Shown in pieces: positions 43,035-45,788 of a DNA stretch of 64,000 bases. Origin of the DNA: Streptomyces griseoluteus (GTDB taxonomy: Bacteria; Actinomycetota; Actinomycetes; Streptomycetales; Streptomycetaceae); assembly GCA_000717735.1 (NCBI GenBank), contig JOBE01000027.1, positions 1 through 64,000 of the forward strand, given 5' to 3'. A model generated the notes under the pieces. It did no database searches and was not told the origin of the DNA. It saw only the letters and a program-made list of their open reading frames with translations. A program made the position numbers and the translations under genes. Numbering within the stretch: position 1 is the stretch's first letter; each line of letters starts with the position of its first letter.

Positions 43035-43264
43035 GCGTCTTCGTCCTCGTCGTCGGCGGCGGATTCGGGGCTGGGAGCACGTTCCGTGTCGGATTCCACG
43101 GACCCGGCGAACCCGATCGGCGGCTTCCCCGATTCCGGAATCGGATCGGGAAGTGCCTTGAACAGGCGTAGGGCGGCGGCCTCGGCGTCGGCGAGCGGGG
43201 TCCGCTCCTTGGGGCTGGTGACGATCTGCACGGTGCGGCCTTCGGTGCTGAGGTAGATACGCAT
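43031..43264 (-). CDS. small acidic hypothetical protein (77 aa)
   Basis: MRIYLSTEGRTVQIVTSPKE start, very acidic C-terminus (AADDEDEDA). Overlaps both neighbours. Function unknown. Confidence 0.6.
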   Translation of the reverse strand: MRIYLSTEGRTVQIVTSPKERTPLADAEAAALRLFKALPDPIPESGKPPIGFAGSVESDTERAPSPESAADDEDEDA

Positions 43265-43545
43265 CAGGCGTGGGCTCCTGTCGTGCACGGTTCGCACAAG
43301 CAAGCGGCAGCCGCGGCAGCCTTGGTGTGTCGCCATATGGCGTACAGCTTGATGGCGGCCTCATCGGCTCCTCCACCCTCTACCTTCTCGCCCAAGGCGA
43401 TGCCGACCGCCCCCTTCAAGCCGATCAGTTCGCCTCGAATCTGTTCGCCTTGGAGGAAGGTGAGGTTCGCAGCCTGGTTGTCGAAGTGGCTCTGCCGTCG
43501 GTGGTACTCGCGCAGGAGCGCCCGGGCGGTAGGCGGGATACGCAT
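43264..43545 (-). CDS. small hypothetical protein with C-terminal Cys cluster (93 aa)
   Basis: Helical protein ending ACLCEPCTTGAHA. Start and stop overlap neighbours as TGATG. Function unknown. Confidence 0.6.
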   Translation of the reverse strand: MRIPPTARALLREYHRRQSHFDNQAANLTFLQGEQIRGELIGLKGAVGIALGEKVEGGGADEAAIKLYAIWRHTKAAAAAACLCEPCTTGAHA

Positions 43546-45374
43546 CAGAAGGGTCCTCCGAAGGCGTAGTCGGGGCGGGAGATGATGTCGGGCCGGGGCC
43601 GGAACTCTCTGCGGCAGTTCGGGTGCGCGACGGGGTGGGCGAGCGCGTCCTGGACGGTGCGCAGGGTGCCGGCGGCCCGGTCGTCATCGTCGTGCGAGGT
43701 CCAGCCGCAATTCGCTACGATGATTCCATCAACGGTGAAGGTGCCACCGCTTGTTGTCGCGTCGTAGACCCATCCCTCGTAATGCTCTACGTCGACTGAC
43801 ACCACCTGCGAAAGGGTGAACCTGTGGGGAAGCTGGACAGTCGCAAGGACAGCGTCGTCGTCAGCTGTGAGACCTGTGGCACGTCGTTCCAGCCGCTCTA
43901 CAACAGCGCGGCCCGGTTCTGCGGGCAGGCATGCTCGAGGTCCGGCAGTATCCGGCTCCCCCGTGAGGAGATACGCCGCCTCTACGTCGAAGACGGACGC
44001 CAGCCGGGCGAGATCGCTGATGTCCTCGGCCTTCGCGTGTCCCAGGTCTATACAGCCGTCAAGCGCATGGGTATCTCCCGAAGCCGCTCTGAAGCTCTGT
44101 CGCTGTGGCATGCGAACGCCGGGGCCGGCGCCAGGGAAGAACGTGCCAAGGCAGCCCACGACGCCAAGCGCGGACGCCCCTCCAAGCCCGAGAGCTTCGT
44201 CAGAAGCGCTATCACCAAGCAGTCCATCGCTTCGATCATCGGACCGCATGAGGTCAGATTTGCCGAGATGCTGCGAGCCAGAGGCGTCGGATACTCCCAG
44301 CAAACTCCGCTGGACGTCTACAACATCGACTTCACCCTGACCGAATACCCCGTCGCCGTGGAGATCGTCACCGGTGGCGGTTCGAACGGATACTGGCAGC
44401 GCCTTCACAAGCGACGCATACACGTCCTCCACCATTGGCACCTGTTTGAGATCAAGTTCCGCAAGGGCCGCCGAGTCCTCACAGAGCCCGTCGTGGACAA
44501 GCTGATCGCCTTCGCGGAGAAGGTGAGCGCGGACCCAACCCCGTACGGTCAGTACGGGATGGTTTGGCCCAACGGTGAAGACATCCGTACCAACGCTCGT
44601 ACGCCGCGCTATGCGGTAGGCCGGCCCTGAGAACCAGGCTCTGACCATCTGCTTCAGGTGTCCATGCGGAAGGAACGCGCCTCCAGGCATCACGCACTCG
44701 GGCCCGTCGCGGACTTCGACCCAGTCGGCGCCGACTTCGTCCGCGCAGGTGCGGAGGAAGCCGGTGTTCGCGGTGGTGTAGGTCTGCCAGGAGGTGGCCG
44801 CGCGGGCCCAGGATTCGACGGGGTGGCGGGAGGAGCCGGCGTAGATGACGGTGTCGAGCGGGTGGTCCTGGAGGAGGCGGGCGCGTCCGGGCCATGGCTG
44901 GCGGATGCGGTCGACGTGGCCGCGGGCGGCGGTCAGGGCGTCGCGGAGGAACGCGCGGGCTCGGCGTACGGCTTCACGGATCCGGCCGGTGAGGTCGGCG
45001 TAGTACTGCGCGGACAGGGTGGTGATGTGGGCCTGGTGTCGTGCGGTCCAGGACCATCGGGAGGGGCGGCCGGCGCGGTCCAGGGCGGCGAGGGCACCTT
45101 CCCGGTAGGCGATGGGCAGGTCGGTGGCGGCCCAGCGCTCGACGAGCGCGAGGGCGGCGCGGTCGAAGGCGGCGATCTGCTGCTGGAACGCCTCGCCTGC
45201 GGTACGGATCGCGGCGTAGGCGGTGCGGCCGGGCCGGATGCGGGCGAGGGCGGTGAGGAGCGTGTTCTGGGCGCGGGTGAGGATCCGCCAGGCGGCCGCG
45301 AGGGCGTCGGTGGCACCGATGATGAGGGCCAGGAGCCGGGCCCGTAGGGAGCGGCGGCGTACGGGGGTGGTCAT
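43545..45374 (-). CDS. MuF-like head morphogenesis protein interrupted by an intein
   Basis: 609-residue precursor from ATG 45374 (overlapping the upstream stop). The N-extein (1-226) is helical and Arg-rich, typical of minor head proteins that contact the portal, and ends VEVRDGPE. The C-extein (556-609) starts CGWTSHDDDDRAAGTLRTVQ and contains AHPVAHPNCRREF. Joined, they restore the GPxCGW...DD...HPxxHPNCRR motif of actinophage MuF proteins. The insertion is exactly at the conserved Cys, which serves as the +1 residue. The spliced product would be 280 residues. Without splicing the conserved motif would be broken. Confidence 0.85.
   Translation of the reverse strand: MTTPVRRRSLRARLLALIIGATDALAAAWRILTRAQNTLLTALARIRPGRTAYAAIRTAGEAFQQQIAAFDRAALALVERWAATDLPIAYREGALAALDRAGRPSRWSWTARHQAHITTLSAQYYADLTGRIREAVRRARAFLRDALTAARGHVDRIRQPWPGRARLLQDHPLDTVIYAGSSRHPVESWARAATSWQTYTTANTGFLRTCADEVGADWVEVRDGPECVMPGGAFLPHGHLKQMVRAWFSGPAYRIARRTSVGTDVFTVGPNHPVLTVRGWVRAHLLREGDQLVHDGLCEDSAALAELDLKQVPMVEDVYASLVKALPVSVRTATGDDLHGDGVFGQGEVDVVDVQRSLLGVSDASGSQHLGKSDLMRSDDRSDGLLGDSASDEALGLGGASALGVVGCLGTFFPGAGPGVRMPQRQSFRAASGDTHALDGCIDLGHAKAEDISDLARLASVFDVEAAYLLTGEPDTAGPRACLPAEPGRAVVERLERRATGLTADDDAVLATVQLPHRFTLSQVVSVDVEHYEGWVYDATTSGGTFTVDGIIVANCGWTSHDDDDRAAGTLRTVQDALAHPVAHPNCRREFRPRPDIISRPDYAFGGPF
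43710..44696 (-). mobile_element. intein (329 aa) in the MuF-like gene
   Basis: Residues 227-555 of the precursor. Block A begins with C227 (CVMPGGAFLPHG), block B contains VGPNHPVLTVRGWVRA, block F is EGWVYDATTSGGTFTV and block G is DGIIVAN followed by extein Cys. The penultimate residue is Ala rather than the usual His, a known but uncommon variation. The middle ~190 residues have no LAGLIDADG or HNH endonuclease; they are simply the antisense reading of the homing endonuclease gene at 43824-44630. Confidence 0.85.
43824..44630 (+). CDS. homing endonuclease gene antisense to the intein
   Basis: GTG 43824 follows AAAGGGTGAACCT, a good ribosome site on the plus strand. The 268-residue product has a zinc ribbon (C15, C18, C33, C37), an HTH (about 48-85: EEIRRLYVEDGRQPGEIADV, RVSQVYTAVKRMGI) and a Vsr/EDxHD-type nuclease domain: E143 (HEVRFAEML), D169 (YNIDFTL) and E180 (YPVAVEIV). 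This is the layout of stand-alone phage homing endonucleases such as I-Bth0305I. The gene lies wholly within the intein, its codons exactly opposite those of the intein frame, and covers part of block B. Confidence 0.82.
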   Translation: MGKLDSRKDSVVVSCETCGTSFQPLYNSAARFCGQACSRSGSIRLPREEIRRLYVEDGRQPGEIADVLGLRVSQVYTAVKRMGISRSRSEALSLWHANAGAGAREERAKAAHDAKRGRPSKPESFVRSAITKQSIASIIGPHEVRFAEMLRARGVGYSQQTPLDVYNIDFTLTEYPVAVEIVTGGGSNGYWQRLHKRRIHVLHHWHLFEIKFRKGRRVLTEPVVDKLIAFAEKVSADPTPYGQYGMVWPNGEDIRTNARTPRYAVGRP

Positions 45375-45700
45375 CGGCGGGGCCGTGCGACGAGCTGGAT
45401 GACGCCGAGGCCGTCCGGGGTGCTGGTGGCGGGGTCGTCGGGTGCTGGGGGTTCGCCGTTCTCGAGCTGGGCGATCTGTCGTTCGATCGCGCGGACGTTC
45501 TCGGTGTAGGAGAGGGCGACGACGCCGGTCACGTTGATGGTGGTCGGCTGGTCGTGGACGAGGGCCGCGAGCCGCTCGCGGAGGACTTCGAGGGCGACGG
45601 CGCGCGCGGTGCCGAGGCGGGCGTAGCGGGTGTCGAGGTCGGCGGGGTCGGTGCTGGTGCCGAGCTGCGAGATGAGCCAGGCGCGTGTCGCGACGTCCAT
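45371..45700 (-). CDS. hypothetical head-region protein (109 aa)
   Basis: Begins MDVATRAWLISQLGTSTDPA with a helical core (ARAVALEVLRERLAALVHDQ) and an Asp/Pro-rich end. Overlaps the MuF start. It may be a head-tail adaptor by position. Not recognised. Confidence 0.6.
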   Translation of the reverse strand: MDVATRAWLISQLGTSTDPADLDTRYARLGTARAVALEVLRERLAALVHDQPTTINVTGVVALSYTENVRAIERQIAQLENGEPPAPDDPATSTPDGLGVIQLVARPRR

Positions 45701-45742
45701 GCGGCTCTCCTCCGGTGGTGGTGTGGGTGGGAAGGGGTGCGG

Positions 45743-45788
45743 GTACGGGCCCGGCTCCTGGCGCCCCCACCGGGGGCCGGGCCCGTAC
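45743..45788 (-). terminator. strong hairpin after the capsid gene group
   Basis: 13-bp perfect GC stem (45743-45755 with 45776-45788) with an inner hairpin in the loop. It lies just after the 45793 gene stop and probably lowers expression of downstream connector and tail genes relative to capsid. No T-tract. Confidence 0.6.

Follow-up and report, generated by a model that had tools for sequence, protein, structure and literature searches.

Can a single stretch of DNA encode a protein-splicing element on one strand and, codon opposite codon, its homing endonuclease on the other? The question is raised by a 64,000-nucleotide stretch of Streptomyces griseoluteus (contig JOBE01000027.1, positions 1 to 64,000; hereafter the window), in which a MuF-like phage head or minor capsid gene on the minus strand (43545..45374) is interrupted by an intein (43710..44696), and this intein in turn harbors a complete gene on the plus strand (43824..44630). 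We are confident in the following answer: on the minus strand lies an intein predicted to splice from the MuF capsid protein, and opposite it, in the same codon register, the plus strand carries the gene for a predicted Vsr/EDxHD-type nuclease, likely the homing endonuclease of that intein. Two open frames in register, their conservation, their codon and substitution patterns, and empty alleles of the capsid gene were all observed, and the folds of both proteins come from predicted models.

A single uninterrupted minus frame (43545-45770) contains both the MuF-like gene and the intein; comparison with the homologue from Streptomyces phage ZL12 suggests that the gene likely begins with the ATG at 45374. 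The host protein matches phrog_37388 (E 5.7e-86; best stretch, residues 1-220), with the N-extein at 44697-45374, the C-extein at 43548-43709, and the stop codon at 43545-43547. The intein comprises 329 codons from C1 (44696) to N329 (43710) and is followed by Cys+1, and thus has the ends of a Cys1 intein. Blocks A, B, F, and G, proposed in the original prediction, are all present on the minus strand: block A (C1 VMPGGAFL..., 44658..44696, alignments A3 and A8) lies outside the overlap with the nuclease gene, block B (...TVGPNHPVLTVRGW, 44535..44585, alignment A8) is antisense to nuclease residues 238-254, and block F (EGWVYDATTS, 43752..43781) is followed by block G (GTFTVDGIIVAN and then C, 43710..43745, alignment A8). 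Residues N45, H46, and P47 of block B and N329 are invariant among the 55 sequences of alignment A8. The window nevertheless departs from the norm, as its block B reads GPNH, keeping His but with Gly for Thr, in place of the TPNH found in 112 of the 121 clusters of relatives described below, and its block G has Ala where a penultimate His is usual. Because block B, block F, and the penultimate residue deviate, the activity of the window member is less certain than that of the family. The intein is predicted to adopt the horseshoe (HINT) fold from its first to its last residue. The guanine-plus-cytosine (GC) content of the insert is 0.622 versus 0.749 and 0.735 for the exteins, and that of the next gene (43264-43545) is also low (0.649).

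The plus-strand gene has 268 codons with a GTG start, a TGA stop, and a possible ribosome-binding site, AAAGGG (43811..43816, plus strand), and is as complete as originally claimed. Based on homology and an AlphaFold2 (AF2) model with a mean predicted local distance difference test (pLDDT) score of 84, its product is a predicted homing endonuclease. A CxxC...CxxxC motif (C15, C18, C33, and C37; 43866..43934) may form a zinc ribbon in a low-confidence part of the model; residues 6-41 have a weak PHROG match to an HNH-endonuclease family (E 0.002). A helix-turn-helix (residues 44-86; 43953..44081) precedes a Vsr/I-Bth0305I-like nuclease domain (residues 138-236; 44235..44531), and a Vsr-like catalytic fold was found in the predicted model. 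The catalytic candidates on the plus strand are E143 (44250-44252), D169 (44328-44330), and E180 (44361-44363); across 47 aligned sequences, D169 and E180 never vary and E143 is conserved in at least 90%. The assignment to Vsr/EDxHD-like nucleases, also part of the original prediction, gained from wider sampling: the 47-sequence profile matched I-Bth0305I (PDB 3r3p) with an E of 1e-4, compared to 0.2 for an earlier 7-sequence profile, whereas the window nuclease domain alone had no match among PDB sequences. Intein residue 292-h exactly faces nuclease residue h, so that the window gene begins at intein residue 291 and overlaps block B, as had been anticipated, but not block F.

Relatives were collected mostly through sense-intein patterns. 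An alignment of the sense intein yielded the best 80 of 450 confirmed loci on viral contigs and 49 on bacterial and archaeal genome contigs, which together with 25 earlier loci (L001-L025) and the window make 155 sources. The nuclease is present in 148 of these (80/80 of those best viral loci, 43/49 genome loci, 24/25 earlier loci, and the window), and in all 148 it is antisense and in codon register, rather than in frame as in a canonical intein. The nuclease profile used consisted of alignment A1 and 50 homologues, and its seven A1 rows match by construction. The seven sources lacking the nuclease (L002, L148, L149, L151, L152, L153, and L154) all have a weak intein match or none. Shared descent by itself brings antisense similarity in register, and these 148 cases therefore represent one old arrangement and not 148 independent ones. 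Since the window locus is present five times among the 155 sources, which also hold other near-duplicates, the sources were clustered: 140 inteins were delimited, leaving out eight other nuclease-bearing sources (four window copies, and L014, L029, L114, and L143, for which one end was not found), and grouped into 121 clusters (nucleotide identity 85%, length coverage at least 60%). As delimited, C1 occurs in 116/121 clusters and C+1 in 109/121; the computed ends look wrong or unusual in approximately 10 clusters. No standard N/C junction occurs at the computed end of L062, L072, L078, L084, L086, L099, L131, and L145, where block G may be extended or unusual, and the intein of Rhodococcus phage REQ3 (L007) apparently begins with Ala instead of Cys, opposite a short nuclease without a helix-turn-helix.

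Among the record titles of genome loci with the nuclease are Streptomyces, Micromonospora, Rhizobium, Pseudomonas, Lachnoclostridium, Brasilonema, Rhabdochlamydiaceae, Arcobacter, Chloroflexi, and Peregrinibacteria, some being metagenome bins for which the host assignment is provisional. A tblastn search with the nuclease matched 104 phage records, with many of the listed sites under head morphogenesis or MuF genes. Ten unusual host genes were also scanned: six have a Phage_Mu_F match (below the cut-off in two), L044, L077, and L118 match the intein only, and L110 matches a putative phage metallopeptidase (PF18894), so that at L110:2653-4077 the same type of element interrupts a gene other than MuF. 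In Salmonella phages PK1 and vB_StyS-sam, open reading frames (ORFs) opposite the capsid gene and inside the intein are recorded as hypothetical proteins (L190:1995-2804 and L191:2281-2682). A scan of viral contigs with nucleases returned few loci, and a scan of genome contigs with the close-relative nuclease alignment A2 found no relative. No intact second copy was found in 297 family and 392 genus genomes (overlapping samples), which gave one weak partial match each (L014 and L192, the former scored antisense). The window probably belongs to a ZL12-like prophage. A 90,633-bp IMG/VR contig encodes an identical nuclease, and the genome of Streptomyces phage ZL12 is 90,435 bp.

Several observations bear on mobility. 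Phage ZL12 carries the same capsid gene without the insert (58.5% identity in two pieces covering 41% of the query), and the protein alignment provides an intein-free allele with a clean in-frame junction, in agreement with the clean 987-bp insertion initially proposed. Similarly, Salmonella phage PBSE191 is an empty allele of the capsid gene of Salmonella phage BPS11Q3 (L003), with a gap-free DNA junction. The BPS11Q3 capsid gene matches 386 phage records, 58 of which cover at least 80%; among the 60 matches listed, 36 are two-piece and cover 53-56%, as expected of empty alleles, and one of these was aligned. In 9 of 10 pairs, identity is higher between the inteins than between the exteins (e.g., 0.87 versus 0.64 for L017/L139), the exception being L004/L022 (0.89 versus 0.95), and several insertion sites are in use across the family. 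In Escherichia phage fEg-Eco06 (L185:395-2332), the intein, which the depositors' record already calls an 'inserted intein', occupies a different MuF site (after DSRTSTT) and again has an in-register ORF on the antisense strand. Shortened nuclease frames occur in 3/121 clusters (L007, L141, and L144), those of L141 and L144 likely decaying, which is what a homing cycle with decay would give. The L144 intein has only 194 codons as delimited.

The alternative that survives best accepts both frames as real and denies homing, giving the nuclease a role in packaging-related cutting, exclusion of rival phages, or antisense regulation of the capsid gene. A nuclease within a capsid gene could serve packaging or phage competition, and its target and activity in homing are predictions. 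However, its nearest structural matches include a homing endonuclease, and insertion polymorphism, inteins more alike than their exteins, and several insertion sites are predictions of homing; we therefore consider this alternative improbable.

In most relatives, block F likely also encodes the ribosome site and start codon of the nuclease. Block F is GHVYNLQ-like with a His in 100/121 clusters, and the complement of this His codon is ATG (76) or GTG (24); one further cluster has TTG at the position. Upstream of these 100 starts are GGAGG (37), GAGG or GGAG (33), AAGG (19), and AGG or GAG (7), with none in 4. The codons themselves are biased: the His codon is CAT in 76/100 versus 41.3 expected from the exteins of the same genes (p 7.5e-16), and Leu is encoded by CTC or CTT in 104/115 versus 42.3 expected (p 1.7e-36). 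Among 30 control intein loci, which are the best-scoring of one phylum, none has a nuclease match and none of the 17 matches to the block F regular expression (14 judged true block F) has the His. The expression missed L007, L040, and L041, which by eye have no His. The window and Rhodococcus phage REQ3 have Trp at this position; the window belongs to a sub-lineage without the block F start, and its gene begins at the GTG further inside with AAAGGG upstream.

The nuclease stop falls inside the intein in 118/121 clusters (all but L110, L127, and L133), at a median of 8 codons from the intein start, and codons whose complements make stops are enriched in the first 30 intein codons (129 versus 66.1 expected). 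Between blocks B and F they are nearly absent (5 of 28,937 codons versus 529.6 expected), while control codon sets there are not depleted (1741 versus 803.9 and 927 versus 825.8). Both frames thus stay open because the sense frame avoids TTA, CTA, and TCA, the mechanism invoked in the original prediction, and the antisense frame is open even in most loci with a GC content of 36-50%, a range in which stops are expected.

Substitutions were compared in ten related pairs (two share L078), all relatives rather than the window's own lineage. For sense positions 1/2/3, the numbers of substitutions per codon were 0.169/0.065/0.269 in blocks A-B, 0.333/0.072/0.184 between block B and the HGD motif, 0.179/0.034/0.068 in the HGD core, 0.408/0.125/0.229 in the middle, 0.148/0.115/0.352 in blocks F-G, and 0.298/0.230/0.488 in the exteins. 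Binomial tests of position 1 against position 3 gave p values of 1e-16 in the middle, 1.7e-4 in A-B, and 2.5e-6 in F-G. Sense position 1 is nuclease position 3, and the DNA between the splicing blocks is therefore evolving like an antisense gene, whereas the splicing blocks themselves and the exteins evolve like sense genes. Homologues thus show conservation of both frames, with the selected strand switching by region, and the original prediction withstood this possible refutation. In the catalytic core, the sense motif LHGD...GEVDVV (44322..44363, minus strand) is the exact complement of nuclease YNIDF...VAVE, and H113, G114, and D115 are each conserved in at least 90% of the 55 inteins. In the 89/121 clusters that fit the VAVE motif, nuclease-silent codons are nearly fixed: V177 is GTC in 66/68 (28.3 expected), A178 is GCC in 86/87 (36.9), and V179 is GTG in 82/84 (17.5), with p from 7e-25 to 2e-58. 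These codons preserve the sense residues FHGD, and both proteins appear constrained at once in this VAVE/FHGD core; the window letters are GTC GCC GTG GAG. Together, the substitution and codon tests in these relatives show sense-strand selection on the splicing blocks, antisense selection on the nuclease body, and apparently both on the core.

These patterns weigh on the view that only the intein is real, high GC and register complementarity having left the antisense frame open as a by-product whose conservation mirrors that of the intein. Long antisense ORFs are indeed common in the window, and in-register antisense similarity is automatic if the sense strand is conserved. For these reasons, the length of the ORF was dropped as evidence and antisense similarity alone was set aside as circular, since complementarity in register carries it over; independent homology, stop counts, codon bias, and substitution classes were used instead. 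The antisense product has its own relation to helix-turn-helix domains and Vsr-like nucleases, and sense-changing, nuclease-silent substitutions outpace the reverse class in the middle, where the sense protein is predicted to be disordered. With open low-GC frames, biased start and ribosome-site codons, and these substitution classes, the view is already contradicted, and we give it very little credence. An equally slight chance attaches to the opposite view, that only the nuclease matters and the minus frame is a dead insertion breaking the capsid gene. The sense middle does change as if unselected for the sense protein and is predicted to be disordered, but blocks A-B and F-G are under sense-strand selection, the Cys residues at both junctions are kept in most clusters, the capsid frame remains open across the insert, and many carriers are isolated, propagating phages. 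Least credible is a conventional intein with an unrecognised sense-frame endonuclease domain between blocks B and F, where canonical large inteins carry theirs, as sense residues 148-289 mostly have a pLDDT below 50, no sense-frame nuclease was matched in Pfam, NCBIfam, or PHROGs, and the substitution pattern favors the antisense frame.

For the two-stranded element, we infer a cycle from sequence comparisons. The capsid gene would be expressed and the intein would splice from its protein, as its blocks, predicted fold, and empty alleles suggest, while a separate antisense transcript would yield the nuclease, starting at the complement of block F in most relatives and at the GTG further inside in the window. 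The nuclease may then cut intein-free MuF alleles of co-infecting phages, and repair would copy the whole element across; cutting and copying are proposed because presence/absence polymorphism exists and the inteins are more alike than their host genes.

We propose the name 'Janus intein' for what is likely a previously unrecognised class of mobile element, one DNA stretch in which a protein-splicing element is written on one strand and its own homing endonuclease on the other, with codons facing each other. In the form met most often, block F would double as ribosome site and start and the FHGD motif as active site (VAVE), and descent together with homing would have maintained the class in phages of many bacterial phyla. 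If so, it would be among the most widespread full-length, codon-register antisense gene pairs known. Mobile inteins are described as uniting splicing and mobility in a single protein through an in-frame endonuclease; here the two are uncoupled onto opposite strands, yet locked base by base. Many claimed cases of antisense dual coding in bacteria and phages lack evolutionary support; this family would be a clear case, and its 121 clusters offer a large natural data set on two unrelated folds encoded by complementary strands in register. A second gene can thus lie concealed in a phage capsid gene annotated as a single protein, and the family offers new inteins and possibly new rare-cutting nucleases.

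Among known systems, the 'Fractured genes' of Dassa and colleagues (2009) reportedly comprise split inteins and a new endonuclease family, the endonuclease being free-standing between two split-intein genes. The likeness is that inteins are reportedly paired with this kind of nuclease; the difference is that the window intein is not split but one continuous frame (43545-45770) with the nuclease antisense inside it. I-Bth0305I is an EDxHD homing endonuclease, of a family treated in PMC3943268, and it shares with the window nuclease a Vsr-like catalytic fold (in the predicted model), an adjoining DNA-binding domain, and a phage-borne setting, although 3r3p was deposited as a 'mobile intron protein' and the EDxHD residue set is represented in the window nuclease by the candidates E143, D169, and E180. 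No antisense endonuclease within an intein was found in the available text of the open-licence literature, subscription papers being mostly outside its scope. Inteins in the same kind of host gene, for capsid morphogenesis or minor head proteins, occur in Guernseyvirinae phages Snoke and LSPA1 (PMC6776784), UPWr_S (PMC8425127), and vKMB36 (PMC11162368), and the LSPA1 and UPWr_S phages are among our tblastn matches; in their accessible portions these papers describe the intein only and mention no antisense gene, with a homing endonuclease gene elsewhere (gp63) noted in PMC8425127. According to the accessible part of PMC8966425, the mobile inteins PhoVMA/TliVMA and PI-SceI share with the window the intein fold, insertion in a conserved host motif, and an endonuclease between the N- and C-terminal splicing parts. 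Theirs is in frame, whereas that of the window is a separate opposite-strand gene in codon register that overlaps block B and lies outside the intein protein. Antisense homing endonuclease genes are known in group I introns of nuclear ribosomal DNA, such as I-DsqI of Didymium squamulosum L2066, which in the text available (PMC9548176) likewise lies opposite the splicing element and host gene. The splicing element of I-DsqI is RNA and its gene sits in peripheral P9.2, whereas in the window both strands encode protein, in codon register.
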